Below are positions 5,064-58,141 of a stretch of 64,000 nt of DNA, in pieces (positions within the stretch are counted from its first letter, which is position 1; every line of letters begins with the position of its first letter). The stretch is from Bradyrhizobium sp. SZCCHNS1050 (lineage in GTDB: Bacteria; Pseudomonadota; Alphaproteobacteria; Rhizobiales; Xanthobacteraceae), in contig NZ_JAUETR010000003.1 of the NCBI RefSeq assembly GCF_032484785.1, forward strand, positions 124,001 through 188,000, given 5' to 3'. Position numbers and translations under genes: made by a program. The notes below the pieces were generated by a model. The model worked only from the letters and a program-made list of their open reading frames with translations. It did no database searches and had not been told where the DNA came from.

Positions 5064-5066
5064 CGC

Positions 5067-35301: not shown

Positions 35302-35403
35302 ATGGCTGATGTCTCGAATAAAACAGTGGAATCAACGACTTGGCGCTTCTCCGTGGCGCCGATGATGGATTGGACAGAGAGCTTTTTGAAATCAAATAGT
35401 TAG
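35302..35403 (+). pseudogene. dusA: dusA 5' remnant, probable island attachment site
   Basis: A 33-codon ORF starts at the ATG at 35302 and contains RFSVAPMMDWTE (residues 15-26), the invariant N-terminal block of tRNA-dihydrouridine synthase A. After this block the sequence leaves the DusA family and stops at 35401. The 5' end of dusA is a known target of a family of tyrosine recombinases that insert prophages and genomic islands, leaving just such a 5' fragment at one junction. The likely attachment core is within about 35350-35378. An integrase remnant and an excisionase-like gene flank it. Confidence 0.7.
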
Positions 35404-35750
35404 GTGAAGGGCGTGTGCAAATCCTGTGCACGCGTGTTCTACTATTCTTTCGCTTTCGTTCTCACGAAATTGCCGCCGGCGCTCGCCGAAAACTGTCGGT
35501 CCTGCATTGAAGCTTTGTCGTGACGCTGCTCTTGGCCGTCATGGTGTCGCGGAAATGCCGAGTGGCTGGCGATGTGAACGAACGCCTTGTTCGTCTGCAC
35601 ATCCGTTTGCGACGTCGAGGGTCGCCGGCGGGGTTGTTGTGCATGAGCGCAACGGCGCAGCTAAATAATTGACAGAACGAGAATTTTGGAAGATCCCCCA
35701 TCAACGGGGGACGGAGAGTGGGGACGGTAGCGCGCGACAAATCGTGATCA
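35404..35750. other. Gene-free stretch inside the island junction
   Basis: No ORF with coding character is seen here on either strand. The sequence is less GC-rich than its neighbours and looks like decayed DNA between the dusA remnant and the HTH gene. Confidence 0.5.
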
Positions 35751-35981
35751 TCACGCCTGATCATGCCCAGTCGCCGGCGACCGTCCTGGCGCACGGCAGG
35801 ACACCGTGTTTCTCTTGTCCCACGCGTCGAGTTCACCAATCGGATATAGGACCGCTTTCCCGATTTTGACGAAGGCCGGCCCAACGCGCATTGCTCGCCA
35901 GTTCCGGAGTGTTCCGACGCTCACTGCGCCACGGTAGCGATCCGAGACTTCCTCCGGTGTCAGGTATTTTCGATCCTCCAT
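35751..35981 (-). CDS. AlpA/excisionase-like helix-turn-helix protein
   Basis: 76 residues. MEDRKYLTPEEVSDRYRG and VSVGTLRNWRAMRVGPAFVK, followed by YPIGELDAWDKRN, form the HTH_17 winged-helix pattern of excisionases and AlpA-type regulators carried by integrative elements. GGGAG lies 9 bases before the ATG. The downstream gene direction and the neighbouring integrase and dusA remnants support a mobile-element origin. About 250 bases upstream, to 36231, hold no gene. Confidence 0.7.
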   Translation of the reverse strand: MEDRKYLTPEEVSDRYRGAVSVGTLRNWRAMRVGPAFVKIGKAVLYPIGELDAWDKRNTVSCRAPGRSPATGHDQA

Positions 35982-36231
35982 TGCATCACTCCCGATCACG
36001 CGACCATGAATGCAGTATTTTCCGGTCCCAGCGGCGCTCGATAGCCAGACGTACTCGTGGATAGTGAAAGAGAAAGCGAACGGCGGTACAAAGGCGTATC
36101 GTCCACTTCGATCTAGCGTCGCGATGTCCGGTGTGCTCAAGAAACCGCATCTCATTTCGATGAGTGATATCGTCAGCTTCAGGCCAGAAGCACACCTCAG
36201 CGATCGATTGACGGGTCGTAAAGCTGCGCTC

Positions 36232-37836
36232 TCACTCCGGCAGGCCCGCCAGCCGCAGCCCCTTCTTGAACGTAGCCCGATGCTCAGGCCGCTGGATCGG
36301 TATCCAATTCTCCAGATTGGACATCCGAAACGCGGGATGCAGCTTGAGCAAATGCGCGGCTGCGTCTTTCGCCTGCTCCATCCGCCCGGCAAGCGCGTGC
36401 GACGCGATGATGATCAGCACGACGAACCCTGAACTCGGCAATTGCCGGAACGATCGTTCGGCCCAGGACAGAGCCAGCTCGAAACGCTCCGCGAACAAAT
36501 GCGCCATCGCCATCCCGGCCTGCATCCGGAACATCTCTGGATCGAGCGGGCTGAATCGCATCGCACGTGTGAAGAAATCGATAGCGCTCTCGGGATCACC
36601 GCGCAAAACCCGCAGGAAGCCGCCCAAGAACCAGGCCGCCGCCAGATTGGGGTTGAGCAGCAGCGCCCTGTCGAGCAATGCAACCGCGCCCTCCAGATCA
36701 CCGGCCAGATGGGCCAGCGTATGCCCCGCGCGGGTCAGCGCGACGGCGTCATCCCTGCCCAATTCGATCGCGGAATGAGCCAGCCGGATCCCTTCGGCGA
36801 ACTCCAGGGACTGATCGGTCATCCAGCCGTTGATCTTTCGCAGGCAATAGCACCACGCCGCCATCGCATGGGCCGAGGCAAAACTGGGATCGAGCGAAAG
36901 CGCCTTCTGAAACAGAAGCGAAGCCTCGTCGATCGCGTCGCGCGTCCCGCGGTGCAGATGCGGCATCGCGCGCAAATAGTGATCATACGCGCTCAGATTC
37001 CCCGTCGGCTTTCGCCGGGCGCGGTCGATTTCCGCGCGCTCGAGTTGTGAGGCGATCACGCCGACGATGCTGGTTGCGATCTGGTCCTGAAGCTCGAAAA
37101 GGTCGTCGATCGTCTCTTCAAACCTATCCGCCCACAGATGAGTGCCGGTGGTCGCGTCCACGAGTTGCCCGGTGATGCGTACCCGGTTCGCGGACTGCCG
37201 CACACTGCCTTCGACGACGTAGCGCACGCCGAGCTCGCGGCCGACCTGCTGCTCATTCACGGTGCGTCCCTTGTAGGTGAAGCTCGAATTGCGGGCGATC
37301 ACGAACAGCCAGCCGATCCGCGACAACGCGGTGATGATGTCTTCGACGACGCCGTCCGCAAAATAGTCCTGCCCGGGATCGCCGCTGAGGTTACGAAACG
37401 GCAGCACCGCGACGGAGGGAGCATCCGGGAGTGACAGCGTCGGCCGCTGGTCGCCCGCCGAAGAATGCGATCGGGCGTCTACGGTGGTGGCGGACACCTC
37501 GTCCTGCCGGACCTGCCCGATGAAGCGCATTCCCTTGCGCGAAATCGTCCGGATCAGGCGCTGCTCCTTGCCGCTATCTCCGACTGCCCGGCGCACGGCG
37601 TTGACGTGACTCGTCAATGTCGATTCGGAGACGATGCGACCCTGCCAGACGGCGGTCAGCAGATCGTCCCGTGTCACCACCTGATCCCTGTTGCGGACCA
37701 GGTAGAGCAGAAGGTCGAAAACTTTCGGCCCGACCGCGACGAGCTGCGAGCCACGGGTCAGCTCGCGCCGCTCCGCATCCAGGCAAAAATCTTCGAACAG
37801 GAAACGCAAAGCCGCTCCGCTTGGACGACAATCCAA
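36232..37836 (-). CDS. Winged-helix, TolB-like and TPR regulator
   Basis: 534 residues, cytoplasmic, no membrane helix. Residues about 10-105 are an OmpR/PhoB-type winged helix (TRDDLLTAVWQGRIVSESTL, RTISRKGMRFIG). Residues 135-275 form a TolB/FlgO-like domain found in CadC-type and cyclase-like regulators (SVAVLPFRNLSGDPGQDYFA, YVVEGSVRQSANRVRITGQL). The C-terminal half is TPR-like helices. It probably acts as a transcription factor for the divergent genes starting at 37948, 111 bases away. The start is a TTG with no strong ribosome site, so the exact N-terminus is uncertain. Confidence 0.8.
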   Translation of the reverse strand: MDCRPSGAALRFLFEDFCLDAERRELTRGSQLVAVGPKVFDLLLYLVRNRDQVVTRDDLLTAVWQGRIVSESTLTSHVNAVRRAVGDSGKEQRLIRTISRKGMRFIGQVRQDEVSATTVDARSHSSAGDQRPTLSLPDAPSVAVLPFRNLSGDPGQDYFADGVVEDIITALSRIGWLFVIARNSSFTYKGRTVNEQQVGRELGVRYVVEGSVRQSANRVRITGQLVDATTGTHLWADRFEETIDDLFELQDQIATSIVGVIASQLERAEIDRARRKPTGNLSAYDHYLRAMPHLHRGTRDAIDEASLLFQKALSLDPSFASAHAMAAWCYCLRKINGWMTDQSLEFAEGIRLAHSAIELGRDDAVALTRAGHTLAHLAGDLEGAVALLDRALLLNPNLAAAWFLGGFLRVLRGDPESAIDFFTRAMRFSPLDPEMFRMQAGMAMAHLFAERFELALSWAERSFRQLPSSGFVVLIIIASHALAGRMEQAKDAAAHLLKLHPAFRMSNLENWIPIQRPEHRATFKKGLRLAGLPE

Positions 37837-37947
37837 TGAGAATTGAAGGCCGATTCAGCCCGTCCGCAAGGCTTTCCTGCCCGCATCAGCTCATCCTCGC
37901 CGTCGCAATAAGGCCGTCTCCGGCTGGAAAAGTCGAGGAAAATCAGC

Positions 37948-38697
37948 ATGAAGATCGTTGTCGTCGGGGGCACAGGCCGGATCGGGACCAAGCTTGCCGG
38001 CTTGCTGCGCCGCAAGGGGCACGATGTCGTTCAGGCCTCCCCCCGCACGGGTGTCGACGCCGTCACCGGTGACGGGCTCGACTTCGCGCTGTCGGGCGCG
38101 GACGTTGTCGTCGATGTCGCCAATTCACCGTCGTTCGAGGACGGCGCGGTTCTGGAATTCTTCACGAGGTCCACCCGCAATGTCCTTGCGGCCGAAATCG
38201 CCGCGCGCTTACAGCACCACGTCGCACTGTCCATCGTCGGGACCGATCGCCTTCCGGATTGCGGTTACTTCCGCGGCAAGCTCGCCCAAGAGCGTCTGAT
38301 CCGGAATTCGGGGCGTCGTTACAGCATCCTCCGCGCCACACAGTTTTACGAATTTGCCGACGATATCGTCGCGACCTCCACGCATGGACAAGTCGCCCGG
38401 CTGTCGCCGGCGCTGTTTCAGCCGGTCGCCGCGGACGATGTCGCTGCCGCGCTGGCCGCCGTGACGCTGGCCCCGCCGATCGACGGCATCATCGAACTGG
38501 CCGGCCCGGAGCAGCTCAGCCTCGACGACTTCGGCCGCAGATACCTCGCCGCGATCAACGACCCGCGCAAGGTCGTCGCCGATATCCACGCCCGCTATTT
38601 CGGCGCGGAGCTGGACGACCGATCGCTCACGCCGGGCGACCATCCGCGCCTCGGCGTCATCCGCTTCGCCGATTGGCTTTCCTCCCTTCGCCAGTAA
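37948..38697 (+). CDS. NAD(P)-binding atypical short-chain oxidoreductase (NmrA-like)
   Basis: 249 residues. It opens with the Rossmann motif MKIVVVGGTGRIGTKLAGLL and resembles NmrA/SDR-a family proteins, which bind NAD(P) and act as reductases or redox sensors. The GRRYSILRATQFYEF region matches the family substrate pocket. A GAGGAAAA precedes the ATG. It is the first gene of a plus-strand set read away from the TPR regulator. Confidence 0.82.
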   Translation: MKIVVVGGTGRIGTKLAGLLRRKGHDVVQASPRTGVDAVTGDGLDFALSGADVVVDVANSPSFEDGAVLEFFTRSTRNVLAAEIAARLQHHVALSIVGTDRLPDCGYFRGKLAQERLIRNSGRRYSILRATQFYEFADDIVATSTHGQVARLSPALFQPVAADDVAAALAAVTLAPPIDGIIELAGPEQLSLDDFGRRYLAAINDPRKVVADIHARYFGAELDDRSLTPGDHPRLGVIRFADWLSSLRQ

Positions 38698-38750
38698 CGC
38701 AGCGCGGCCGGCGGAGCTCTCCGGCAACCGCCACGCCGTCCTCGTGCGAG

Positions 38751-39710
38751 ATGAACATGACCAAGGCCGTTCCACACGATCTTGAGGGAGAGGAGACGGC
38801 GGCAGCGCCCGAACCGCGCGAAGCCGTTCGCCCGTCGGCCAACCGCCCTCTCGCGGACGCCGAGATGGCCCGCGTGCTCGGCACCGAGCCATTTCGCATG
38901 GCACTGGACGCGACCGGCGGCGGGGTGACGCACTGGAAGCACGACCCGCTCCACGACGTCGTCGAGCCGATGACCCACCACGTCATCATGGCCTACAACG
39001 GCGTGGTTCAGCGCATGGAGCGGCGGTCGGGACGTTTCGTCTCGGCGGGCACGTTTCGTCCCGGCGTCGTGATCATCATTCCCGAGGGCGCGAGCTCGCG
39101 ATGGGACATCCCGAAGCCGGTCGATGTCGTGCAGCTCTATCTTCCGCACAGCACGCTGGTTCGTGTGGCCGACGAAGCCGAAACCAACAGGCCGGCCGAT
39201 CTCCTGGAACGGACCGCGCATCCCGACCCGATCACGTCCCGCCTGCTGCTGAGCGCGGCGGACGTCCTGGAAGGCAGCGAGGCCCTGGATTCGCTGTTCA
39301 GACAGCAACTCACCGACCTCCTCGCCACGCGTCTGCTGGCCGCGCACACCGGGGCGCCGACCGCGGTCCAGCCCATCGTCGGCGGTCTGGCGCCGAGAGT
39401 GCTGATGCGCGCCATCGAGCGGCTTCGCTCCGAGAGCGACGCGGACGTCTCGCTTGCGGCGCTCGCCGCGGACGCCGGCCTGTCGCGCTTCCATTTCTGC
39501 CGCGCCTTCAAGGAAAGCACCGGGCTCTCGCCGCACGCCTGGCTTCGCCAGCGCCGGCTCGAGCAGGCGATGCAGATGCTGCGCGACCCGGACGTGTCCG
39601 TCGTCACGGTCGCGGCCGCGCTCGGCTACGCCTCGCAGACCGCGTTTGCTGCTGCATTCAAGCGGCTGACCGGGGACACCCCTACCGATTGGCGCCGGCG
39701 GGCGCGTTAG
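38751..39710 (+). CDS. AraC-family transcriptional regulator
   Basis: 319 residues. The C-terminal 100 residues carry two helix-turn-helix motifs (SLAALAADAGLSRFHFCRAF and SVVTVAAALGYASQTAFAAA) ending in FKRLTGDTPTDWRR, typical of AraC/XylS. The N-terminal region is a cupin-like effector domain. Ligand unknown. Two ATGs at 38751 and 38757 are both possible. It may control its own set. Confidence 0.88.
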   Translation: MNMTKAVPHDLEGEETAAAPEPREAVRPSANRPLADAEMARVLGTEPFRMALDATGGGVTHWKHDPLHDVVEPMTHHVIMAYNGVVQRMERRSGRFVSAGTFRPGVVIIIPEGASSRWDIPKPVDVVQLYLPHSTLVRVADEAETNRPADLLERTAHPDPITSRLLLSAADVLEGSEALDSLFRQQLTDLLATRLLAAHTGAPTAVQPIVGGLAPRVLMRAIERLRSESDADVSLAALAADAGLSRFHFCRAFKESTGLSPHAWLRQRRLEQAMQMLRDPDVSVVTVAAALGYASQTAFAAAFKRLTGDTPTDWRRRAR

Positions 39711-39809
39711 CAGCAATTGCTCTTTAGTCGCCGCAACCGCGCTGGGGCACCAGCACACAGGGTTCGTTAGATCATCATCGTGTCCAAGCCCACCAATCGG
39801 AGATGACCA

Positions 39810-40799
39810 ATGCCCTTGAACAAGCCGCTCAATCGGATTGTGAACACCACGCGCCGGAAGATCCTCGCGACCTCGGTGATGTCCGCGGTCTCGCTCAGCG
39901 TCCGTTCCACGACCGCGATCGGCGAGGAGTCAAGAAGCTCGACCTTCGCCGCGCAAGCGGTGGATCCGACGGCGTTCGTAACGACCAAAGACGGCGTGAA
40001 GATCTTCTACAAGGACTGGGGGCCGAAATCGGGTCAGCCGATCGTCTTCCATCACGGCTGGCCGCTCTCGTCCGACGACTGGGACACTCAGATACTGCAT
40101 TTCGTCGGCAAGGGGTTTCGCGTGATCGCCCATGACCGCCGCGGTCACGGCCGTTCGAGCCAAGTCGGCGAAGGCCACGACATGGATCACTACGCGGCCG
40201 ATGCTGCCGCGGTCGTCGACCATCTGGACCTGCGAAATGCGGTCCATGTCGGACATTCCACCGGCGGCGGCGAAGCCGCCCGCTACGTCGCGCGTCACGG
40301 CCGCGGCCGTGTCGCGAAGCTCGTGCTGATCAGCGCCGTGCCGCCGCTGATGGTCAAGACGGAGAACAATCCCGGCGGCTTGCCGATCGCCGTTCTCGAC
40401 GATGTGCGCCGGCAGCTCGCCGCCGGCCGGGCGCAGTTCTATCTGGAATTCGCGAGCGGTCCGTTCTTTGGCTACAACCGCCCCGGTGCCACGGCGTCGC
40501 AGGCCGTGATCTGGAACTGGTGGCGTCAGGCCATGAGCGGCGGCGCCAAGGCGCATCTGGACGGCATCAAGGCGTTCTCCGAAACCGACTTCACCGAAGA
40601 CCTCAAGGCCATCGCGGTGCCGACCCTCGTCCTGCACGGCAGCGACGACCAGATCGTGCCCGTCGCGGACTCGGCGCCGCTTTCGGCGAAATTGCTGAAG
40701 AACAGCTCGCTGAAAATCTACGACGGCCTGCCGCACGGCATCTGTACCACCCATGCAGCGATCGTGAATGCCGACCTGTCGGCCTTCATCGCCGGCTGA
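39810..40799 (+). CDS. Exported alpha/beta hydrolase (non-heme chloroperoxidase-like)
   Basis: 329 residues. The N-terminus has a twin-arginine-like pair ([10 protein letters not shown]) and a hydrophobic stretch, so it is probably exported. The hydrolase fold shows the oxyanion region [13 protein letters not shown], the nucleophile elbow [17 protein letters not shown], Asp in [12 protein letters not shown] and the final His in LPHGICTTH. It may hydrolyse esters or act as a perhydrolase; the substrate cannot be told. GGAG lies close to the ATG. Confidence 0.85.
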
Positions 40800-40838
40800 T
40801 CCTCTGCATCGATCCAATCCAATCACAGGAGACACAAA

Positions 40839-42044
40839 ATGCGACTGGTCGTCATCGGTGCCGGCTTCGCCGGTATGTATGCGGCATTGTCCGCCGCCCG
40901 GCTGCGCGACATCCACGGCGTTTCGCCCGAGGCGCTGGAGATCGCGCTGATCGCCCCGGAGCCGACCTTGGTTGTCCGTCCGCGGCTCTACGAACCAAAC
41001 CCCGAAACGCTGACGGCGCCGCTGCTGGATGTGCTCAAGGCGATCGACGTGGTCTATGTGCAGGGCACCGCCGAGGCGATCGATGCTGCGGCGCGCGAAG
41101 TGAGCATAGCGGCACCCGGGGGCAGACGAACGCGGCTCGCCTACGATCGTCTGGTCGTGGCCACCGGCAGCCGGCTGTTTCGTCCGAGCATTCCCGGCCT
41201 TGCCGAGTACGGTTTCAGCGTCGACTCGCTGGACGACGCGGTGGCCCTCGACAGGCACCTGCACGGACTGGCCGGCCGGCCGGCCGGGAATGGCCGCGAC
41301 ACGGTCGTCGTCGCCGGCGGCGGGTTCACGGGCATCGAGGCAGCTACCGAGATGCCCGCGCGGCTCCGCGCCATTCTCGGCCCCGATGCGCGGCCGCGCG
41401 TCGTCATCGTCGAGCGCAATCCGGTCATCGCCCCCGACATGGGCGAAACCGCGCGTCCCGTCATCGAGAACGCATTGAAGCGGATCGGCGTGGAGACATG
41501 GCTGGGAGTCGGCGTTGCGTCGCTCGACCAGTCCGGCGTGACCTTGTCGGGTGGCGAGCGCATCGCAGCCGAGACCGTGATCTGGGCTGCCGGCATGCGT
41601 GCCGCGCCCCTGACCGCGCAGATTCCAGCCGAGCGCGACAGTTTCGGCCGGCTGCTGGTCGACCGCGACTTGCGCGTGCCGAGCGCGGCGGGCATCTTCG
41701 CGACCGGCGACGCTGCGCGTGCCGCCTGTGATGATGCCGGCAACTACGCGCTAATGTCGTGCCAGCACGCCACGCGGATGGGCGCTTTCGCCGGCAATAA
41801 CGCCGCCGCCGAACTGCTCGGCGTTCCGACCGCGCCTTATCACCAGGCGGCCTACGTCACCTGCCTCGATCTCGGCGAGGCCGGCGCTTTGTTTACACGC
41901 GGCTGGGATCGGACGATCGAGATGGTCGGCGACCAGGCGAAGAAGACCAAACGCGAGATCAACACCGCCTGGATCTACCCGCCGCTTGCCGAACGTGCCG
42001 CCGCGCTCGCCTCCGCCGATCCGGAACGCGTCACCGATCTCTGA
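40839..42044 (+). CDS. NDH-2-like FAD-dependent pyridine nucleotide oxidoreductase
   Basis: 401 residues. FAD-binding MRLVVIGAGFAGMYAALSAA at the N-terminus, a second Rossmann motif VVVAGGGFTGIEAATEM at about residue 157, and the FAD-contacting FATGDAARAA near residue 288 define the type II NADH dehydrogenase/disulfide-reductase-like fold. CAGGAG precedes the ATG. It follows the hydrolase by 39 bases. Confidence 0.88.
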   Translation: MRLVVIGAGFAGMYAALSAARLRDIHGVSPEALEIALIAPEPTLVVRPRLYEPNPETLTAPLLDVLKAIDVVYVQGTAEAIDAAAREVSIAAPGGRRTRLAYDRLVVATGSRLFRPSIPGLAEYGFSVDSLDDAVALDRHLHGLAGRPAGNGRDTVVVAGGGFTGIEAATEMPARLRAILGPDARPRVVIVERNPVIAPDMGETARPVIENALKRIGVETWLGVGVASLDQSGVTLSGGERIAAETVIWAAGMRAAPLTAQIPAERDSFGRLLVDRDLRVPSAAGIFATGDAARAACDDAGNYALMSCQHATRMGAFAGNNAAAELLGVPTAPYHQAAYVTCLDLGEAGALFTRGWDRTIEMVGDQAKKTKREINTAWIYPPLAERAAALASADPERVTDL

Positions 42045-42116
42045 CCGCCTCACCGAACGAGCCGGACGTCTTCAGGGATGAAACCAGCCTTCAATAACCT
42101 GCAACAGGAGACCAAC

Positions 42117-43034
42117 ATGAATCTGCAAAACACCTCACACCTCGTCACACCGAAGCCGGATGAACTGGTGCCGTCGCGCTATGCCCTGAAGGTCGGCGAG
42201 ATCGACGTGCTGGTGATCAGCGACGGGGTGCTCCCGCTGCCGACCACGATGCTCGGGCACAACGCTGCGCCGTCGGCGCGGGCCGCTTGGTTCAAGGACA
42301 TGTTCCTGCCGACCGACGCCTTCGATTGGGCCCTGAATGCCGTCGTCGTCCGGAGCGGCGGCAAGACCATCCTGATCGACGCAGGGCTCGGGTCGGATCC
42401 CGACCTGAACCTGCCGCGGGCCGGACAGCTGATCAAACGCCTCGACGCCGCCGGCATCGATCTCGCGTCCGTCACCGACGTCGTGCTGACCCATATGCAC
42501 ATGGATCACGTCGGCGGCCTGCTGGTCGAGGGCGTGAAAGACCGGCTGCGGCCGGACCTGCAGATCCATGTTGCGGCCGCCGAAGTCGAATTCTGGCGGG
42601 CGCCGGATTTCTCGCGAACGGCGATGCCGGAAGGCTTCCCGGACGCGCTGCGCGCAGCCGCGAAGCGCTTCGCGAGGGAGTACCACAACCAGATCCGGCA
42701 GTTCGACGAGGAGCACGAAGTCGCGCCGGGCGTCGTCGTCCGCCGCACCGGCGGTCACACCCCGGGACACAGCATCGTCCGCCTGACGTCCGGCGGCGAA
42801 GCGATGACCTTCGCGGGCGACGCCGTGTTCACGGTCGGCTTCGACCATCCCGACTGGCACAACGGCTTCGAGCACGACCCGGACGAGGCAACGCGCGTTC
42901 GCGAGGGATTGCTGCGGGACTTGGCGAAGACGGGCGAGCTACTGGTCGCCACCCATATGCCGTTCCCGTCCATCGGACGCGTCGGGCGCGAAGGTAACGT
43001 GTTTCGGTTCGTGCCGATCTACTGGGACTACTAA
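42117..43034 (+). CDS. Metallo-beta-lactamase-fold hydrolase
   Basis: 305 residues. The zinc motif LTHMHMDHVGGL (HxHxDH), the second His in GGHTPGHSIV, Asp in FAGDAVF and a final His in ATHMPFP fit the lactonase/glyoxalase branch of the superfamily. CAGGAG is placed well before the ATG at 42117; an ATG at 42078 is weaker. A quorum-quenching or ester-cleaving role is possible but unproven. Confidence 0.85.
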   Translation: MNLQNTSHLVTPKPDELVPSRYALKVGEIDVLVISDGVLPLPTTMLGHNAAPSARAAWFKDMFLPTDAFDWALNAVVVRSGGKTILIDAGLGSDPDLNLPRAGQLIKRLDAAGIDLASVTDVVLTHMHMDHVGGLLVEGVKDRLRPDLQIHVAAAEVEFWRAPDFSRTAMPEGFPDALRAAAKRFAREYHNQIRQFDEEHEVAPGVVVRRTGGHTPGHSIVRLTSGGEAMTFAGDAVFTVGFDHPDWHNGFEHDPDEATRVREGLLRDLAKTGELLVATHMPFPSIGRVGREGNVFRFVPIYWDY

Positions 43035-43057
43035 TCGTTCACCGGATTGAAGCCGGG

Positions 43058-43100
43058 CTGCGGCGCAGGACATCACCAACGGAGTGTGCCTGCGCCGCAG
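43058..43100 (+). terminator. Strong hairpin ending the SDR-MBL gene set
   Basis: CTGCGGCGCAGG and CCTGCGCCGCAG form a perfect 12-bp stem around a 19-base loop, 24 bases after the MBL stop. A short TTT follows on the plus strand. It is well placed as the operon terminator. Confidence 0.6.
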
Positions 43101-43761
43101 TTTGCAAGGCTGGTCAGCCGGCTTCGCCGATCGCGCTTAGGCGCGAGCTCTAACTGGTTCCGGTGATCCGGCAGCGGTCCTCCATGGGCTCACGGCTAGG
43201 TCTTCCCAATTTTGCGAACCGGTTCGCTAGGCTGCGATTGGTGCCATCCGGCACGTTGATCTCTCAGGTCTTTCTTCTTCTAGCAACACTGTGGGTGTCG
43301 GAGCAGTGCCATACTGCAATAAGTGAGCAACAGAACTTACGACCGCCGAATCTACGCCGCGGAGAGGCGCTTTTATCTTGCCGGAGTAATCGGGCGTCTC
43401 TCCGCCTTCTTCTTCGACATGATCGTCTCCTCTGCTTCATACTATACGGCTGCACCCGAGCGGTCGACAACATGACAATGGTCCGGCTTTCGTCGTGATC
43501 TTGCGGTGATGACATCTGGTGGTCCATGCAGGAGTCCGTGCTCAGCCCCGCTCGCCATGCGGGCGCACATGTCGTCGTCAGGATCGCGGGGCAACACAGG
43601 CACTCACGCGCGCTCGCAGCCTCGATCGGGCTGTCGTCGCCGGCAAGATAGCGTGCTCTCCACATCCGCTTCGATCCACCAAACGCCTTTCCGCCGATCA
43701 GCGGAAACTCAGCCATTCTTCTGTCGTCGAGCTGTCTGCCAGACGGCGCTCGCCAGAGCTC
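43101..43761. other. Gene-poor stretch before the IS110 gene
   Basis: No ORF with coding character was found. A 16-codon minus-strand ORF at 43373-43420 (MSKKKAERRPITPAR) has a very good ribosome site (AGAGGAGACGATC) and looks like the cut-off 5' end of an insertion-sequence gene. Confidence 0.4.
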
Positions 43762-44847
43762 TCACATTGCGGCGGCGAGCGCCGTCGGGTTGCTTAAATT
43801 CGGTTCAGCGGGGCTTTTATCTTCGGCTGCGAACCGGAACACAGATCCGTCGATCCACATGCGATGCATCACCACTGCCAGCTTGCGTGCAACGGCCACC
43901 ACCGCGCGCTTGTGGCCTCGCTTAGCTGCGACCCGGACACCCCAGGCCTTGATGCCGCACCATTGCTTGGAGCGCACCAGCATCGCGCTCGCCGCCTCGT
44001 AGAGCACGGTGCGCACCTCCCCGTCGCCGCACTTCGAAATGTGCCCTTCGATGTCGATGGATGTGCCCGTCTGGATACGCCTGGATGTCAGTCCGAAATG
44101 CGCGCCGACGGTCTTCGACTTGCTGAACCTGTGCGGATCATCGATGGCCGCCTTGAAGGTCAGTGCCGTCACCGGGCCGACGCCGGGAATGGCGCAAAAG
44201 CGTCGACAGAGTTCGTCCCGGCCGACCATCTGCACCAGCAGATCATGCAGCTTTTTGTACTCGGCCCACAGTGCTTCCCACGCTCTCAACACGCAGTCTG
44301 TCACGCCGGCGATAAGCCGGTCACAAGCCACCAACTCGTGCACTCGCGCTACAAATGTCGCGCGCTGGACCCGCGGTCCGACCATCAATCCGAAGACCTT
44401 CAGGGACTGTCTGATCTCGTTCTCTATGTCGAGCAATTTTCGCTTCAGCGTTCGCCGGTGTCCCAGCAGAAGCCGTATCTTGTGACTCTCCTGACTCTTG
44501 ACATGAACCGGTCGATACCAGCCCGCACGCACGAGGTGCGCCAATCCTCGCGCGTCATTTTTGTCAGTCTTGTTGCGCTGGGCTTCCAGCGCAGCCGCGG
44601 CCTGCCGCGTTTCCAACAGGACCATGGGCAGGCCAAGAGACACGAGCTCGCGGTGCAGCCACGGTGCTACACTTCCTGCTTCATGGCCGACCTTGTCGAG
44701 CCGTGGCAGGTACGGTGACAACGCTTCGAAGATGATCGCAGGATCGGTCGCCACGCTGGCTTCGAACACGACGGCGCCGTCACGGCTGTTCACAACGCAG
44801 ATTGCGGTCTTGGTGCTGGATGTGTCGAGTGCTGCTGAGAGTTTCAT
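43762..44847 (-). mobile_element. IS110-family transposase gene
   Basis: 361 residues. The N-terminal RuvC-like DEDD domain has the first Asp in ALDTSSTKTAICVV and the AxD motif in NKTDKNDARGLAHLV. The C-terminal Transposase_20 domain has the helix-hairpin-helix IPGVGPVTALTFKAAI and the SKCGDGEVRTVLYEAA block with the catalytic Ser. The length is normal and no frameshift is visible, so the gene may be active. IS110 elements have no terminal inverted repeats, so the element ends were not fixed. An ATG nine codons upstream is the other possible start. Confidence 0.9.
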
Positions 44848-45655
44848 CGGCGGACGTCCTCTTCGGCGAATCATTTTTGATTCCCCGCGATGCTGCGCCT
44901 TTGTTGCCGCGACTGTCTCATCTCGCACTCGCCCGATTACGCCGCCAGTCGAACCCGCTCTACGCTCGCTCCTCTCAAATCCAAGTCTGAACTGCGCTCA
45001 GACACCGTGCGGTGGCTACACGAGGAGTGAGTCTCAGGCAGCATCTCTGCTGCGGCTCTGGTCTGACCGTTGGCATACGGCCGCGGGGTCTTGGCGATCT
45101 ATCGACAGAAACCAGAGCGATCGAACTGCATCGGCGATGCAATTCGTCCGCAGATCCGAGATGGAAAGTCGGACGGCCCGCTAGCATCAGTTCAACACGG
45201 ACCGGTCCAGCATCGAGGAAAACTGGTGTTAAAGCCGCACGCAAATCGCCCACACGGATGGACCAGACTGAGTGTCGAGCGGCGGCAGCTCGGCAGCAAC
45301 GGCGCGCATCGTGGCCGTTAAGGGCAGGGCTGTAGCGTGCGACGTCGCGCAATTCGGCCGTTCCGCTCTGGCCTCGGACGTGCCACCTTTGCGGGACACC
45401 TGCGCGGAGGGCGGGGCTCGCGAGCCTTGATCCGCTTTCGCCAACCGTCGGGCAGAATCGTCCGCCATCCGGCACCGCTACGCCCAGGCCTCTCCGTATT
45501 CTCTCCACGGGGCGAGCAGAAGAGATGACCGATCCCGGTCCGGGCAGGCAGCTCCCCGTTCCGGCCACTGAGTTCTGCGTTATCGTTTTGGAGCAGCCGG
45601 CCTTTGGCGTGCCTCCGAACGCGCGGGGCCGAGACGCAAGGAGCAGCATCTGATC
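44848..45655. other. Gene-poor stretch upstream of the IS110 gene
   Basis: No convincing gene is seen on either strand. The 150-200 bases directly upstream of the transposase start would be the place of an IS110 left end and its bridge RNA. The remainder looks like non-coding or decayed DNA. Confidence 0.4.
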
Positions 45656-46702
45656 ATGACCGAGTCCGTTCCGCCCCATCCATTCGATGATATGGAGGCG
45701 CTGGCTTGGCTGCGCTCTCAGCCCGACGGACGCGTGACGGTCAGCGCCGCGGAGCTCGGACGTCAGTGGGGCTGGAACAGGATGCGGACCAGTCGTCGCC
45801 TGAAAGCCTGGGAGCACGCGGGCCTGATCAGTCGTAACGCTGAAGCGATCAATGTAACGGGGACCGCGACGTCGATCGTTACAGATGGTACTGCCGTCGC
45901 TACGGACGCCGCCGGCGTTACAGGGATGTCCGGAGCGGAGGAAGGCCGTCGTTCCCTGACACGCGTCAAGCTCGCTGCTTTGATTGTGGCTCTGGCGCTG
46001 GCTTGTGTATCGGCTGCCTTTTCTATCGACGGCCTGACCGCGATCTTCGCCGGGGCTTTCTGGCCTGTCATCATGATGGGCGCCGTGCTGGAGGCCGGAA
46101 AGCTCGTGGCGGCGGCCTGGCTGACGGAGCATTGGACGTCTGCGCCGTCCCTCTTGAGGTTCGTCCTCGTCCTGATGATTGGTGTGTTGATGGGCCTGAA
46201 CGCCATTGGCGTATTCGGCTTCCTCACCCGCGCTCACCTCGACCATATGGCATCCAGAGATCTCACCCTTGCCGACAGAACCGCAGACGTCGAGGCCCGC
46301 CTCGGGATGCAGAGCCGAGTGGTCACCGACATTGACCGGTGTATTGCCCAGATCGACGCGGCCGTCGACGAGGCGACGCGCCTTGGCAGGCCAGTCGGAG
46401 CGATGACGATTGTTGACCAGAGGCGTCGCGAACGTGCCGACATCGCTGCGGAACGGCAGCGTGAGTCCCAGGCTCTCGCCAATCTACAGATCGAAAAAGC
46501 CAAGATTGACGCGCAGCGCCGGCGCGCCGAGGCTGAGGTCGGACCGATACGCTATCTCGCCGAGCTGATTGGCATACCCGCCACGGACTTCGAGCGAGCG
46601 GTCCGGCTGCTCACGCTGGCGCTGGTTGCCGTCCTTGATCCGATGGCAGTGGCGCTGCTGCTCGCTGCCGGAGTTCACAGCAGGCGCGCTGGTTCATTCT
46701 GA
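45656..46702 (+). CDS. HTH, transmembrane and coiled-coil protein of unknown function
   Basis: 348 residues. Residues about 12-62 (MEALAWLRSQPDGRVTVSAA, WNRMRTSRRLKAWEHAGLIS) resemble a winged helix. A Thr/Ala-rich linker leads to four membrane helices at about 105-205 (AALIVALALACVSAAFSIDG, PVIMMGAVLEAGKLVAAAWL, LLRFVLVLMIGVLMGLNAIG). A charged coiled coil (about 205-295) and a final membrane helix near 310-335 follow. AAGGAG lies 13 bases before the ATG. I do not recognise the family; it looks like mobile-element cargo. Confidence 0.65.
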   Translation: MTESVPPHPFDDMEALAWLRSQPDGRVTVSAAELGRQWGWNRMRTSRRLKAWEHAGLISRNAEAINVTGTATSIVTDGTAVATDAAGVTGMSGAEEGRRSLTRVKLAALIVALALACVSAAFSIDGLTAIFAGAFWPVIMMGAVLEAGKLVAAAWLTEHWTSAPSLLRFVLVLMIGVLMGLNAIGVFGFLTRAHLDHMASRDLTLADRTADVEARLGMQSRVVTDIDRCIAQIDAAVDEATRLGRPVGAMTIVDQRRRERADIAAERQRESQALANLQIEKAKIDAQRRRAEAEVGPIRYLAELIGIPATDFERAVRLLTLALVAVLDPMAVALLLAAGVHSRRAGSF

Positions 46703-47604
46703 CTTTGCCGTTTCGTCTAAGCAAGCTCATTGCGCGATACGGGTCTGCCCCAAATCGGTGAGCAGCAAACCTGCGTACGCGCAGACTTCCAGCCGAAGGC
46801 CAGAAGAACAAAGCAAGGCCTTCTCACACCCTATGCACCTGTGGTGCTGACGCTTCGCGGGCCGCATGCGGCTATCTCATTGGGTGAAGCCAGCAATTCC
46901 GCTGAACACGTATTTACATAAGACATCCTGAGTGAATACAGCAGTCTTGCCGATTGATCGACAAATCGAATATCGTCAATAACTTGCCGGCGTTTGGGCG
47001 CGCATACGAATGGAATTGCCCGTCTCGTTCTCGATCGGTGGTGAGTTTGCGTCGGTTTAGGGGCCCCGAAAGCTGTCGGCTCTCGCGATCTGAATTGAAG
47101 TTCTCGCTTCCTGAGGGCTGCAGATTCATTGCGAGGCGCGCAGGGGCTCTGCCAGCCGGCAATCCCGTTGCGCGATCCTTCGGCCTCCGCAGGCCCAGGA
47201 AGCAACGTCCACGCGGCATAGGCGGCTCAATTCCGTCTGATATTTCTCAAGCTCAAGGGCCGATGACAGGCCGGGTCCGTTTGGACGCATCGATCCGCGC
47301 GTGGTTCGTGCGGCTGATACCGCCCGGCCGGATTGAACGATGCGCATCCTGGTCACGGGAGCCGAGGGCCCGACGACCCCCGCTGCCGCTTCGCATCATG
47401 GCGGTTATCATCAGGCGTTGCTGACACAACGGGGCGGTGTGAGCTTACGCAGGTTGTTCGCGAATGATGAGGTGTTCGCAGCAGCTTATTTAGAACGCAA
47501 CGGCAAAGCCGCATTGTCCTCGGTGAGATACGGACCGCGGTGGGGCCGGATGCGGCAAAGGTGGTTGGTGGCATGTGCTGCCATTCATCATGGGCAGTTC
47601 AGGC
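46703..47604. other. Gene-poor stretch between HTH-membrane protein and tetR
   Basis: About 900 bases with only short ORFs that lack coding character. One ORF at 47340 starts MRILVTGAEG, like an SDR/epimerase, but loses the family after ten residues. No promoter or repeat was established. Confidence 0.4.
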
Positions 47605-48288
47605 TCACTGTGGGCGCCGGCTCCAGACATGTCCCTTGCGCAATGTTTGTTTCGCATTGGTCACGACGGTCTCGGCCGCCACGATATCGATGCCCAGCAC
47701 CCGCAGGATGGCCTGGGCCGCCATTGCTGGAATCGAGTCGTCTCTTTTGACCAATGCTTCGCGCATCGAGGCGCTGACGATGGCCAACAGCATCGCATAC
47801 AGGGCCGGCGAATCGACCGTCTTAAAATAACCCTGGCGGATGCCGATGCCGACATCCTTGCGAATGCCCGCAAAGATCTGCTCACGAAATTCTCCGAGAT
47901 CGGAGAGTGCGTGGACGATCAGGCGCCCCCATATCGGATCCTGCAGACCGCGTTCGATGAACAGCATCGTTGCGAGCGCAACCCGCTCGGTGCCCTGCTC
48001 AATTCCAGAAATCGCCTCGTCGACCTCGCGGACCAATGCGGCCGCGACGGCGCCGGCAACGGCCTCGACCAGCTCCGTCTTGTTTCGGAAGTGATAATAG
48101 AAGCTTCCGTTGGAGAGCCCGGCCTGCTCGGCGACTTCCATGACGGACGTGCGTTCGATTCCTTTTTTGGCCATGACCGCGATAGCCGTGTCCAGGATCA
48201 ACGCTCGAGTCCGCAGGCGCTTGGTGTCGTCCTGACTTGCGTCCTGAAAGTGACGGCTCTTCTTCGTCCGGGGCGAGTACGTGCTCAT
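47605..48288 (-). CDS. TetR-family transcriptional regulator
   Basis: 227 residues. The N-terminal helix-turn-helix is plain (ILDTAIAVMAKKGIERTSVM, then VAEQAGLSNGSFYYHFRNKT). The C-terminal ligand domain is of the usual length. It is the last gene of the ALDH to TetR minus-strand set, 18 bases after the alcohol dehydrogenase, and probably represses that set. Confidence 0.9.
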   Translation of the reverse strand: MSTYSPRTKKSRHFQDASQDDTKRLRTRALILDTAIAVMAKKGIERTSVMEVAEQAGLSNGSFYYHFRNKTELVEAVAGAVAAALVREVDEAISGIEQGTERVALATMLFIERGLQDPIWGRLIVHALSDLGEFREQIFAGIRKDVGIGIRQGYFKTVDSPALYAMLLAIVSASMREALVKRDDSIPAMAAQAILRVLGIDIVAAETVVTNAKQTLRKGHVWSRRPQ

Positions 48289-48306
48289 GTCACGGCAATA
48301 GCACGG

Positions 48307-49467
48307 TCAGGCTGCGGCGGCACCGATTATCCCATCCAATGAGCGCTGAATCATCTCCGTATATTCCGCCGCAGACGGGTGGTAGCGTGCGGTCTGGTTG
48401 AAGGGGCTCGCATGTGCGCGCGAACCCAAAGCTGAGACGTCGGCCCCCCGGTAACCAAGTTCGGCCAAGGTCGCCGGCAGGTTCAAGGTCCGCATCAACA
48501 CGGCGATTGCCGCGGAAAGCGACGCTCCGGGGGAGAGTCCCATCGCCCCCGCAATAGCCGCGGCCCGATCGGAGGCGTGACAGCAGACGGAGTCCAACGA
48601 GCAGACCAGGCCAATGCCGCTCAACAGTCCATGATGGAAGCCCTGGTCGCCGCAGGTGATCGCGATGGCGTGCGCCGGTCCTAGGCCCATGCTGATGGCT
48701 ACGCCGCCTGCATAGGCCGCGGCCATCATCTCCGATCGTGCGCGAAGGTCGCCGCCGCGTTGGGTTGCGTCTCGGATGGCCGCCATTGCTCGTCGGATGC
48801 CGTCCAATGCAAGCGCGTCGGCAAAGGGTAACATTCGGCTGGAAAGATAACCTTCCACGCAGTGTGAGATCGCATCGATTCCGGTGGCCGCGGTGAGCCG
48901 GGGCGGCAGCGTCAACGACAGCTCCGGATCGAGCATCGCAAAATGCGGCACGATGGCGGGCGAACTCATTCCCGTCGAGGCGGTCGTGGCGTCCGGGTGG
49001 ATGCCGGCATCGGGCGATGCCTCGCTTCCTGTCCCGGCAGTGGTCGGAATCACTGCAAGCGGGGCGCATCGCCGAGGCTTGGCCGTGGGATTGCCGGCAT
49101 AGTTGGTTACGCTTCCAGGGTTGGTTGCGAGCAGCGCGATGTATTTGGCCGTGTCGATCACCGAGCCGCCGCCGAGCGCGATCACGCCATCGCAATTGCT
49201 TGTTCTGTAGAGCGCCGCACCCCGGTCAGCGTCCGAGAACAGGGGATTTTCGGTCACGTCGTTCAGGATCGCCGCGGCCGGGCCCCGTTTGAGCGCAGCG
49301 GTGACGCGATCGACCAGGCCGACCGTCGTGATCCCGTGGTCGGTCACCAGCATCGGCCGCCTCATGCCCAGACGATCGAGCTCCTCGTCGAGGCAGGACA
49401 GTGCACCGGCGCCGAACACGGTGCGGGGAAGTTGCAGTGATGCGACCATCTGCAATCCTGTGATCAT
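48307..49467 (-). CDS. Iron-type (group III) alcohol dehydrogenase
   Basis: 386 residues. NAD-binding GVIALGGGSVIDTAKYIAL and VIPTTAGTGSEAS, then the metal-site regions ATGIDAISHCVEGYLS and GFHHGLLSGIGLV, define the Fe-ADH family (which includes maleylacetate reductases and lactaldehyde reductases). Substrate unknown. The ATG at 49467 overlaps the stop of the 68-residue gene (ATGA). A second in-frame ATG at 49449 has a good AGGA before it, so either start is possible. Confidence 0.86.
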   Translation of the reverse strand: MITGLQMVASLQLPRTVFGAGALSCLDEELDRLGMRRPMLVTDHGITTVGLVDRVTAALKRGPAAAILNDVTENPLFSDADRGAALYRTSNCDGVIALGGGSVIDTAKYIALLATNPGSVTNYAGNPTAKPRRCAPLAVIPTTAGTGSEASPDAGIHPDATTASTGMSSPAIVPHFAMLDPELSLTLPPRLTAATGIDAISHCVEGYLSSRMLPFADALALDGIRRAMAAIRDATQRGGDLRARSEMMAAAYAGGVAISMGLGPAHAIAITCGDQGFHHGLLSGIGLVCSLDSVCCHASDRAAAIAGAMGLSPGASLSAAIAVLMRTLNLPATLAELGYRGADVSALGSRAHASPFNQTARYHPSAAEYTEMIQRSLDGIIGAAAA

Positions 49468-49670
49468 TTTCCGGCGAGGACCATGCGCAATGCTCTCACA
49501 ACGAGAGCCCAGCTCAGAAACCTGTAGCCGGCCCGCAGCTCGTTGCCGCGAAGGACGCCCTTCATCGGCATGGCGCCCATGATCGTGCCGCCGATGACAA
49601 GCCCGTCCTCCGTTGCATCGACGCTGGTGATCGTCATCAGCTCGGTCCCTTCCGGTGTGAAGATCCGCAT
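49464..49670 (-). CDS. Small conserved-looking protein between CrtI-like and Fe-ADH genes
   Basis: 68 residues. It reads MRIFTPEGTELMTITSVDAT and then IGGTIMGAMPMKGVLRGNEL before a basic hydrophobic C-terminus, with no signal peptide. The start lies 4 bases after the flavoprotein stop, and its stop overlaps the alcohol dehydrogenase start, so translation is coupled on both sides. I recall similar short proteins beside aromatic-catabolic genes, but I assign no function. Confidence 0.65.
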   Translation of the reverse strand: MRIFTPEGTELMTITSVDATEDGLVIGGTIMGAMPMKGVLRGNELRAGYRFLSWALVVRALRMVLAGK

Positions 49671-49674
49671 CGCC

Positions 49675-51258
49675 TCACCCGATCAAGCTGTCGAAGTTGA
49701 TCTTCAGATCCTGGCATGCCCTGATCGCGGTCGCGCGGCCTGCGCCGCTGACGCTCGATACGTTGATCGCGGTCCCCGTGAGATAGAGGTTCTCGATCCC
49801 CGGTATCTTCAGTTTCGCGAGCTCGGGATTGGGACGGTGGCCCCCGATCTGGTGCAGATATTCGCCGGCCCCGCTCACGTCGCCCTTCTGGAACATCGAT
49901 GAATGCCGTGACACTTCCAATGGCGTATCGAACCGGCGGCCGATGATGTTCTCATGGGTGACGTTGGGCGCATATTCGCGGTAACGCTCCAGCAGCCAGT
50001 CGCCGATTTCCCATTGGCGCTCGTCCCAGGATGCCGCACCGGTCCGCAGGTCGAACGGACCGAAGCCATAGACGGTGATCGCGGCCTTGCCCGGGGGACA
50101 TTGGGTCTCATCGAACTGGCACTGCATATGCGAGGCAAGAATGGTGTCGGTCGATCCTTCGCTCCACATATCGCCGTAGCGATAATTGTCGAAGACGCGC
50201 AGAAATCGCTCGAGCGTGGGCGGTGCATAATTGGCGAGGATCACCCGGCCGGCCTCGGCGCCGGCCTTGTATTTTGGGGGTTCGTTAAGCGCGAGATGCT
50301 GGGGCATGATGGAGAAGGCGCCGGTCTTGACTCGCCTGGCACGGGCGACGACATCCGGCGCCACTTTCTCGACCATATCGCCGATCAGCCAAGGATGAAT
50401 TTGGCCGATAACAGCTGCACGCGCCTTGATCTCTTCGCCGGACGCCAGACGGACCGAGGTGGCGCGGCCGTTTTGGACCAGTACCTTTTCGACCGGTGCT
50501 TCCGTCCGAAGCTCCGCGCCATGATCCTCAAGGCAGGCGACCAATGCGTCGACCAGTGCGCCGCTGCCGCCGACCGGGACGCCGATCGGATACGTGTGAA
50601 CCATCCCAGGCATGGTGTAGAGGATGAATCCAGTGCCCATGTCCTCTGGCGCGGTCAGCGTCTCCGCTGCGAACTTGAGCAGGTGAATGATCAGCTTGTC
50701 GCTCTCGAACCACTCGCGGCAGATGTCGAGCTTGCTCATCTGCAGAGCGCGGAAAATCTCCTGTCCCTCCACGCTCTGGTCGAGCAGGGCGTAAAACGGC
50801 CCTTGCTGCGGCGCGGGCGTGAACAGGCTCTGCGTCACCATCGGCACGATCTTCATGCTCATCGCCGCAAAGCGGCGGTAGGCCTCGGCGTCGCTGGGCG
50901 AAATCCTGGCAATGCTCTCGCAGGTCCGGTCAACATCCTTATAGGTGACGAGGGAGGAGCCGTCCTCGAACATCGTCGAATAGACGGCGTCCGGGTAAAG
51001 ATATTTCAAGCCGTATTTGGACTGAAGCTTCAGCTCGTCATTCCTGATCAGTGGATTGGCCTGGATGTTGACGTGCAGCGACGAATGCAGGTCGAACTTG
51101 AAGCCGGGCGCCAAGATTTCCTTGGTCACCACGCCACCGCCGAGCCAGTCATTCTTTTCCAGTACGAGCACGCTCAGGCCTGCCTTGGCCAGATAGGCTG
51201 CGGTCGTCAGGCCGTTATGGCCGGACCCGATGACCACGATGTCGTAGCTCTTGGACAT
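49675..51258 (-). CDS. CrtI/phytoene-desaturase-like FAD oxidoreductase
   Basis: 527 residues. FAD-binding DIVVIGSGHNGLTTAAYLAK at the N-terminus, VLEKNDWLGGGVVTKEI after it, and the C-terminal GIENLYLTGTAINVSSVSGA match the phytoene-dehydrogenase-like amine-oxidase fold. The real substrate in this setting is probably not a carotenoid; members are found in aromatic and dehydro-dimer pathways. It follows ALDH by 30 bases. Confidence 0.86.
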   Translation of the reverse strand: MSKSYDIVVIGSGHNGLTTAAYLAKAGLSVLVLEKNDWLGGGVVTKEILAPGFKFDLHSSLHVNIQANPLIRNDELKLQSKYGLKYLYPDAVYSTMFEDGSSLVTYKDVDRTCESIARISPSDAEAYRRFAAMSMKIVPMVTQSLFTPAPQQGPFYALLDQSVEGQEIFRALQMSKLDICREWFESDKLIIHLLKFAAETLTAPEDMGTGFILYTMPGMVHTYPIGVPVGGSGALVDALVACLEDHGAELRTEAPVEKVLVQNGRATSVRLASGEEIKARAAVIGQIHPWLIGDMVEKVAPDVVARARRVKTGAFSIMPQHLALNEPPKYKAGAEAGRVILANYAPPTLERFLRVFDNYRYGDMWSEGSTDTILASHMQCQFDETQCPPGKAAITVYGFGPFDLRTGAASWDERQWEIGDWLLERYREYAPNVTHENIIGRRFDTPLEVSRHSSMFQKGDVSGAGEYLHQIGGHRPNPELAKLKIPGIENLYLTGTAINVSSVSGAGRATAIRACQDLKINFDSLIG

Positions 51259-51288
51259 TGGATGTTCCTCGCGATCGCGGCAAAACGG

Positions 51289-52737
51289 TCAGATCGGATA
51301 GTGCTGGTTGGGATCCTCGACGGAGATCCACTGCACGTCGGTGAATTCATGGATGCCCGGGGCACCGCCGAACCGGCCATACCCGCTTGCCTTCATGCCG
51401 CCGAGCGGCATCTGAGCCTCGTCGTTGACGGTCGGTCCGTTGATATGGCAGCAGCCAAAATCGAGCCGCTGCGCGATCACCATCGCAAGACCGACATCCC
51501 TGGTGAAGATCGCGGAGGAAAGACCATATTCCGTGTCGTTGGCGACACGGATGGCGTCCTCGATGTCATTGACGCGCACAATCGTCGTGACCGGTCCAAA
51601 GGACTCCTCGTAGTAGATGTTCATGCCGGGCCTGACGTGATCGAGCAGCGCCGCATTCATGAGCGCGCCGTCCGCGTCGCCGCCGGCAAGCAGCTTTGCG
51701 CCTTTTCCAACCGCGTCCGCGATCAGTTCCTGCACGCGATGAACGGACTGGACGGAGATCAATCCGCCGAGCGGAACATCGCTGGTCAACGGATTGCCAG
51801 CGACCAGAGTCCTGGCCTTCGCCGCCAGCTTGTTGGCGAACTCGTCGGCGACGGCATGATCGATAACCACGCGCTCGGTCGACATGCAGATTTGACCCTG
51901 GTGCATGTAGGCGCCGAACGCGGTCGCTGCGACCGCGGCGTCGATATCAGCATCTCTCAACACCAGAATCGGAGCTTTGCCACCGAGTTCGAGCAGCGCC
52001 GGCTTCAGATAGCGGGCACAAGTTCCGGCGACGATCCTGCCCGTTCGCGTCGAACCGGTGAAGTTGACGCGGCGGACGGCCGGATGAGCGATCATCGCCT
52101 CGGCGACGGCTCCGGCATCCTGCGGCTTGTGAGTGATGAAGTTGAGGACGCCCGGTGGCAGCCCCGCATCGTGCATCACCTGCGCGAGCTTGAACTGGGT
52201 CCCGGGGCTAAGCTCGGAGGCCTTGAGAATTACCGTGTTGCCGCAAGCAATGGCCGTGCAGAACGCCCGCACGGCCAGGATCACGGGTGCATTCCACGGC
52301 GCAATCGCCAACACCACGCCAGCCGGGCGTCGTACCGCCATCGAGAACATTCCCGGCTTGTTGCTCGGAATGATCTCTCCCTTCACCTGGGTGGTAAGAC
52401 CGGCGGCTTCCCGCAACATGCCGGCGGCAAGTTTCGCGTTGAATACATACCAGGGCTTCGATGCTCCGGTCTCGCCGATCATGACGTCCCTGAACTCGTC
52501 AGTGCGCGCTTCGAGCAAAGCGGCAGCTCGTAGGAGAATGTCGCGCTTGGCGGCGGGGGCCGTCGCGGCCCAGGCGGGAAAAGCCGCCGCGCAGGACTCG
52601 ACCGCCTTGACGGCTTGTTCGGGTGTCGCTGCGGCTGCTTCCGTGACCAGATCGCCGCTGATGGGGCTGCGCCTTTCGAACCGTCCGGCGGCGCCGGGCC
52701 ACTCCACGCCGTCGATGATCAATGATGCCTCGAGCAC
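51289..52737 (-). CDS. NAD(P)-dependent aldehyde dehydrogenase (vanillin/benzaldehyde type)
   Basis: 482 residues, a typical length. The active-site Glu lies in LELGGKAPILVL and the catalytic Cys in GQICMSTERVV; the NAD-binding NFTGSTRTGRIVA is present. The sequence resembles salicylaldehyde/vanillin dehydrogenases. A GTG start at 52737 follows GGGAGGA at good spacing. It is the first gene of the five-gene minus-strand set, reading away from a region with a LysR-type box. Confidence 0.88.
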   Translation of the reverse strand: MLEASLIIDGVEWPGAAGRFERRSPISGDLVTEAAAATPEQAVKAVESCAAAFPAWAATAPAAKRDILLRAAALLEARTDEFRDVMIGETGASKPWYVFNAKLAAGMLREAAGLTTQVKGEIIPSNKPGMFSMAVRRPAGVVLAIAPWNAPVILAVRAFCTAIACGNTVILKASELSPGTQFKLAQVMHDAGLPPGVLNFITHKPQDAGAVAEAMIAHPAVRRVNFTGSTRTGRIVAGTCARYLKPALLELGGKAPILVLRDADIDAAVAATAFGAYMHQGQICMSTERVVIDHAVADEFANKLAAKARTLVAGNPLTSDVPLGGLISVQSVHRVQELIADAVGKGAKLLAGGDADGALMNAALLDHVRPGMNIYYEESFGPVTTIVRVNDIEDAIRVANDTEYGLSSAIFTRDVGLAMVIAQRLDFGCCHINGPTVNDEAQMPLGGMKASGYGRFGGAPGIHEFTDVQWISVEDPNQHYPI

Positions 52738-54749: not shown

Positions 54750-54789
54750 TGCGCTCGCACCGATCTCAGCACGACGGAGGAATCTGGCA

Positions 54790-57059: not shown

Positions 57060-57115
57060 CTGATTGCCCGTATGCCTGGCCTCGAAGCGGCGGTGCGATG
57101 CTCGCGTAGCGCCGC

Positions 57116-58063: not shown

Positions 58064-58141
58064 GGGCCCTCCGGCGAAGACGCCGCATCGCGCGACATGT
58101 CTCGTGGGGTGGCGGCCAGCCGAGGTGCGTGGCCGATCCGC

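Follow-up and report, generated by a model that had tools for sequence, protein, structure and literature searches.

A short reading frame at 35302-35403 of this Bradyrhizobium sp. SZCCHNS1050 sequence begins like dusA, the gene for tRNA-dihydrouridine synthase A, and then ceases to resemble it. Is it a discarded piece of that gene, and does it mark one end of a genomic island? The window analysed here is the whole stretch of 64,000 nucleotides (G000:C3:124001-188000), taken from a 7.62-Mb genome in six contigs; positions above 64000 extend the window scale along contig C3, and adding 124000 to a position gives its C3 coordinate.

Very probably, a genomic island of ~63.2 kb was inserted in the 5′ end of dusA by a tyrosine recombinase of the dusA-associated type. 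This reading is based on the observation of a core repeat, a matching frame, an integrase at the right end, a step in composition, an uninterrupted gene in a relative and dusA starts that travel with integrase type. Features at the left end are as follows.

35302..35403, plus strand: stranded dusA 5′ end, with at least 16 original codons, the core, then about eight island codons and a stop
35351..35378, plus strand: left attachment core (attL), which shares 26 of 28 bases with its counterpart in the complete dusA
35379..35500, plus strand: left arm of the island, with matches of 76-88% after dusA cores in G015, G026 and G032 and a weak one in G147
35379..64000, no strand: part of the island inside the window, continuing to about C3:222557 (window scale 98557)
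35753..35981, minus strand: 76-aa HTH_17-like protein, a candidate excision factor with weak Pfam and phrog_66 matches

The stranded start and the complete gene

The 35302-35403 frame encodes 33 amino acids before its stop, reads MADVSNKTVESTTWRFSVAPMMDWTESFLKSNS and tracks the N-terminal block of DusA up to MMDWT before diverging. When 145 bp around it were compared with the whole genome, two places were found: the frame itself and the 5′ end of a complete dusA, to which the remnant is 93% identical over 28 bp (E = 1.4e-4 in this whole-genome search). The complete gene, which the first-pass annotation had suggested seeking beyond the right end of the window as a check, lies at 98529-99527 and is DusA by model NF008774 (504.9 bits, cut-off 269); the genome has two Dus-family genes, and the other, on contig C2, is DusB as judged by eye. 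A direct repeat of the core had likewise been sought, and one was found at C3:222557-222584 (98557-98584 on the window scale, outside the window); it is imperfect, and its start is separated from that of the left core by 63,206 bp. The attachment core itself had been placed at 35350-35378, correct within one base.

Pattern searches gave the same picture. The exact degenerate core GCNCCNATGATGGAYTGGAC has two copies genome-wide and its reversed control none. With up to three mismatches, the 20-mer GCGCCGATGATGGATTGGAC occurs at four places in the genome (the remnant with none, the complete dusA with one and two others with three), and its reversed control has no match. Joining the left head to the right body yields a single open frame, 339 codons long; dusA as it now stands has 332 codons and starts MKRYQLHRFAVAPMMDWTD.

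The closest relative is G065. Its DusA is the most similar (91%) among 119 relatives searched, its dusA is uninterrupted, with both halves in one gene, and no integrase match was found in its genome at E ≤ 1e-15. The start of the G065 gene matches the remnant at 35333-35378 (46 bp, 93%, E = 2.4e-12), and its body and downstream sequence match 98557-105214 at 85.6%, with the match beginning at the core; the alignment thus breaks at the core, as insertion there predicts. A chance resemblance of so short an ORF to DusA is practically negligible: the matching stretch is short, but the resemblance exceeds chance because of the E values in this genome and in G065, the two copies of the core and the empty reversed controls, and the arm adjoining the remnant is conserved as well. 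Judged by its sequence, the ORF is the abandoned 5′ end of dusA, which bears out the first-pass annotation through the DusA block to MMDWT, the second core and the G065 match.

To the left of the core, where the chromosome had been supposed to lie, 13935-35082 is 88% identical to G065:C22:56686-77797 over ~20 kb. This identity and a GC content of 66.2% give the left flank a host-like character; no TGTGCA or GTACC-type repeat occurs in the last 500 bp ahead of the core, and the edge of the flank has no integrase match. The chromosomal assignment is therefore likely, but the link of this flank to dusA is not conserved: G065 dusA sits on contig C9, and the counterpart of the flank lies on C22, with block 379-10383 next to it instead. 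The further expectation of relatives with an uninterrupted dusA next to the spermidine-synthase-like gene was borne out by G065 as regards the uninterrupted gene, but not as regards its neighbour. That neighbour is not beside dusA in G065, nor in G002, G022 or G014, which gave 63-68% matches when 70 genomes were searched (this one plus 69 relatives other than G065; matches of at least 63% counted).

No conserved left neighbour of dusA was found when all ORFs were compared against all at 29 loci, this genome included: among ORFs within the 5-13 kb adjoining the core on the left, only the integrase and its antisense ORF recurred in at least three loci. A candidate promoter homology between 35001-35332 and G065 was likewise not supported (score 42, against a best of 41 from 300 shuffles and 43 for an unrelated G065 segment). 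In G065, 4 kb left of dusA match contig C1 of this genome at 94%, and the 9 kb beyond lack any long counterpart in this genome. Blocks 13935-35082 and then 379-10383 lie at G065:C22:56686-88324, in swapped order relative to the window, and no match to 10383-13935 turned up between or near them. By eye, ORFs at 379-9309 resemble a cluster for nitrous oxide reductase (nos) that includes an ApbE-like protein, and those at 14455-24528 a type II secretion cluster (GspD, GspE, GspF, GspG and others).

The island, its cargo and its integrase

Base composition steps at the island: GC is 66.2% on the left (1-35350), 61.8% in the island and 65.3% on the right. Over most of 44-98 kb the tetranucleotide distance is elevated, and it returns to host level after dusA; composition at 36-43 kb is nearly host-like. 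A rough gene call gave 56 ORFs in the island. Cargo inside the window comprises the following.

36232..37836, minus strand: winged-helix regulator with TPR repeats
39810..43034, plus strand: alpha/beta hydrolase, FAD/NAD oxidoreductase and metallo-beta-lactamase-fold hydrolase
43762..44928, minus strand: IS110-type transposase
47605..49467, minus strand: TetR regulator and iron-containing alcohol dehydrogenase
53667..54749, plus strand: RPE65-type oxygenase without the first 132 profile positions (truncated)
58142..62540, minus strand: amidohydrolase and ABC transporter genes for branched-chain-type substrates

A Pfam scan of 34 of the 56 island ORFs and the HTH ORF, which left four without a family, returned regulators (winged helix with TPR, TetR, IclR), enzymes (Fe-type alcohol dehydrogenase, amidohydrolase, 3-hydroxyacyl-CoA dehydrogenase, short-chain dehydrogenase, enoyl-CoA hydratase and an NDP-forming-type CoA ligase), transporters in parts (ABC, TRAP with DctP and DctM, TctA/TctC) and IS110 and Mutator transposases. 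An AI-2E-type transporter is truncated, like the RPE65-type oxygenase, and no phage structural families were among the matches of the scanned ORFs. The first-pass annotation had expected an island on this side with regulators, IS110 and perhaps catabolic genes; all of these were found, together with transport genes. With the identity of the ORF and this island end settled, the metabolic genes to the right can be treated as acquired cargo. No tRNA genes that might serve as island ends were found in the window or in loci L009-L011. In the 20-kb dusA stretches of G032 and G026, the match is confined to the integrase end. Segments 35637-35998 and 44948-46947 recur in G065 at C22:18166-18526 and C22:24144-26138 (77% and 89%), 6 kb apart and far from G065 dusA.

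A tyrosine recombinase gene (98417-97358), encoded on the minus strand and pointing away from dusA, lies directly upstream of the complete copy; its open first part exceeds the PF00589 cut-off (28.3 bits versus 27.1). Aligned with the gene of G032, the recombinase gene runs through three frames (248 residues at 79%, a short middle piece, then the last 80 residues at 86%), so the catalytic RHRH/Y set does not lie in one intact protein; RH- and GH-like motifs are visible by eye in the last piece. Both frame changes fall, by eye, near short single-base runs, so a sequencing error is possible, and this copy would be either such an error or a broken member; intact copies are present in relatives. 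With its integrase broken up in this way, the island may be fixed in place, provided that the frame changes are real and not sequencing errors.

The intact G032 integrase exceeds the cut-off of no NCBIfam model. It matches 322 records in a set of 50,697 from phages, with identities of 38.8% for Pseudomonas phage H66, 37.6% for Enterobacteria phage mEp460 and 36.6% for Burkholderia phage BcepMigl. Farrugia et al. (2015, PMC4482086) name six phages as carriers of dusA-associated integrases; these three are among them, and the match points to membership of that family. An integrase of the dusA-associated type thus adjoins the complete gene, in keeping with the earlier suggestion of a dusA-targeting tyrosine recombinase. 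At the other end of the island, the HTH_17-like protein reaches 25.8 bits with Pfam (cut-off 27) and E = 1e-4 with phrog_66, ‘excisionase and transcriptional regulator’, both weak matches.

In the mechanism that we propose, the recombinase would recombine the core carried by the circular form of the island with the matching one in the dusA codons for VAPMMDWT and split dusA within it. At least 16 codons of the original start would remain at the left end, and the dusA body, now at the right end, would gain an island start made up of an ATG, at least nine codons and presumably a promoter. As the frame is kept, DusA could still be produced after insertion. The present integrase presumably made the insertion, the small HTH protein may take part in excision and dusA would be expressed from the island; a search for a promoter before the new dusA start found none, the two promoter-like matches lying one inside the gene and one pointing away.

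The dusA site and island arms in relatives

Of 29 fetched relatives, chosen for the best DusA scores rather than at random, 19 have an integrase match no more than ~1.5 kb upstream of dusA; among 80 named loci, 17 have one within 4 kb upstream, the named DusA relatives being mostly Bradyrhizobium and neighbouring Hyphomicrobiales. Across 146 genomes of the genus, 62 have an integrase match anywhere at E ≤ 1e-20. At least one exact core is present in 141 and at least two in 25, a count that misses variants such as those in G032. The dusA site has therefore been reused repeatedly in the genus, so that a host gene has its start exchanged together with the islands.

Seven of 110 dusA loci were dropped because they had no core or no clean body. 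With gene-body similarity allowed for, similarity of the head (63 bp before the core) tracks integrase similarity (partial rank correlation 0.61, 0/2000 permutations; 29 loci with an integrase match of at least 180 residues, this one included). The relation of head to gene body, with integrase allowed for, is weaker (0.22, 48/2000 permutations). Since head similarity follows the integrase, each island appears to bring its own dusA start, as also described for the islands of Farrugia et al. (PMC4482086).

These comparisons bear on whether the partial dusA copy arose by ordinary duplication or rearrangement instead of site-specific integration. The different arrangement of the left flank in G065 would suit such an origin, but the shared sequence stops at the core on both sides, the integrase lies at the expected end and partial copies share a conserved left arm. 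Furthermore, all 14 further partial copies that we read leave the dusA frame within one or two residues of MMDWT, where random ends would be expected to vary, and none ended at random. We consider duplication very improbable and retain site-specific integration.

Several relatives carry more than two exact cores: four each in G025, G031 and G173, and three each in G015, G039 and G135. Such multiple cores suggest stacked islands; in G025 and G135 the cores share a strand and span at most a few hundred kb. At locus L028 (G042), a dusA remnant (position 211) lies ~1.3 kb upstream of a complete dusA (1537), perhaps the scar of an almost wholly lost island.

The first 150 bp from the left core occur at eight places in five of the 146 genomes of the genus, always after a dusA-like block with another head. 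This genome (G000), G026 and G032 also have the close integrase type at dusA (at least 75% to the query), so in these three a single element type appears to supply both the left and the right end; in G015, a 116-residue fragment of that integrase type lies elsewhere than at dusA. Against a strict link between left arm and integrase, in G041 an 81% integrase fragment adjoins dusA with no left arm, G031 and G193 have short 74-75% fragments without a left arm, and G147 has a weak left-arm match yet a 60% integrase.

Stacking in relatives also raises the alternative that the stretch between the cores is composite, made of several elements, or of one with later large losses or gains, or with a left flank that is itself older acquired DNA. 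The IS110 and Mutator transposases and truncated genes inside, the uneven composition, the two short pieces 6 kb apart in G065 and far from dusA, and the lack of a conserved left neighbour would all fit such a history. However, the genome holds just two exact cores, both ends are of one element type in G000, G026 and G032, and the edge of the left flank shows neither arm repeat nor integrase match. On balance we find a composite origin unlikely, if worth keeping in mind, and continue with a single island inserted in dusA.

Short repeats flank the cores. The left arm has TGTGCA at 35414 and 35425, and the right arm has it at 98432 and, in reverse, at 98489; for the 262 bp of these two arms together, 0.08 sites would be expected (from 35 sites in 122 kb); two further copies lie at 35596 and 35638. 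These repeats at the island ends look like arm sites of the integrase, a prediction that relatives allow us to extend. TGTGCA-N5-TGTGCA occurs seven times in 620 kb, four times placed 50-52 bp after the ATGATGGA of a core. The other three have no core just before them, and two of these represent one place in overlapping fetches. The coreless pairs (L070, L071; G173, G186) fall within triples 182-211 bp before a remnant core. In G173 and G186, the triples have spacings of 18 and 11 bp, the same as in the right arm of L017, with the other code after the core and no integrase in the preceding 4 kb; they are likely the right arm of an older island beneath a younger one.

On the right arm, at least two TGTGCA are present in 22 of 24 loci with an integrase of at least 50% identity, and in none of the same 24 in a control stretch 600-800 bp upstream. 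Only one of nine loci with a more distant integrase has them (L022, with four copies, which by eye resembles the first, TGTGCA type), as do seven of 70 with no integrase match of 90 residues. In five of the nine distant-integrase loci, GGTACTG occurs at least twice. Fisher's test of the arm repeats gave p = 2.7e-5, although the loci are related and the events not independent. Half of the 14 remnants inspected carry TGC(A/T)GTACC twice, 12 bp apart, and four of these seven also have a single TGTGCA elsewhere; the remainder have a TGTGCA pair (three), a single TGTGCA (one) or neither (three: L063, L065 and L074).

Tentatively, and with slightly less than even confidence, we predict that dusA integrases of these alphaproteobacteria read two arm codes, one per subfamily, around one core; that islands of different code stack without mutual excision; and that stranded starts record past insertions. 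The first code would be TGTGCA, with a left-arm pair 11 bp apart and mostly two to five right-arm copies, and the second TGC(A/T)GTACC / GGTACTGC, with a left-arm pair 12 bp apart. The pattern offers a testable proposal for how islands share or stack at one site while the gene stays readable.

Comparison with known dusA-specific elements

A word search of the available text of PMC4482086 and PMC8409611 found no mention of arm-type repeats, and a literature search found no report of dusA arm sites, though one may exist; the association of arm repeats with integrase type may thus be the new part of this finding. Two differences from the islands of PMC4482086 are the integrase split over three frames and the predicted arm-type repeats, which that text does not mention. 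A PrtN/RdfN homologue occurs in 60 of the 94 islands reported there and is not required. The corresponding PrtN search (PF11112) gave no matches here and none in 14 control genomes either. In Vibrio, the excision and directionality factor RdfN is a 76-aa PrtN-domain protein (PMC8409611), whereas the candidate here is a 76-aa HTH_17-like protein of another family.

Rci shufflon recombinases, given in PMC4482086 as the closest characterised relatives of dusA-associated integrases, are described there as having a longer C-terminus; they invert a plasmid segment. The Vibrio dusA-specific integrative elements share the same target, and experiments have shown that they give dusA a new promoter and restore its frame (PMC8409611).

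The resemblance is closest to the dusA-specific islands of Farrugia et al. (2015, PMC4482086), whose cases include Bradyrhizobium sp. BTAi1. As described there, a tyrosine recombinase lies beside the dusA 5′ end, imperfect direct repeats of the dusA core (21-bp consensus) stand at both ends, the old dusA start lies at the far end and a new island-derived start keeps the frame. The cargo is mixed, and the 63 kb found here compare with 4.8-185 kb there. The island is an ordinary member of a known, dusA-specific kind of genomic island.
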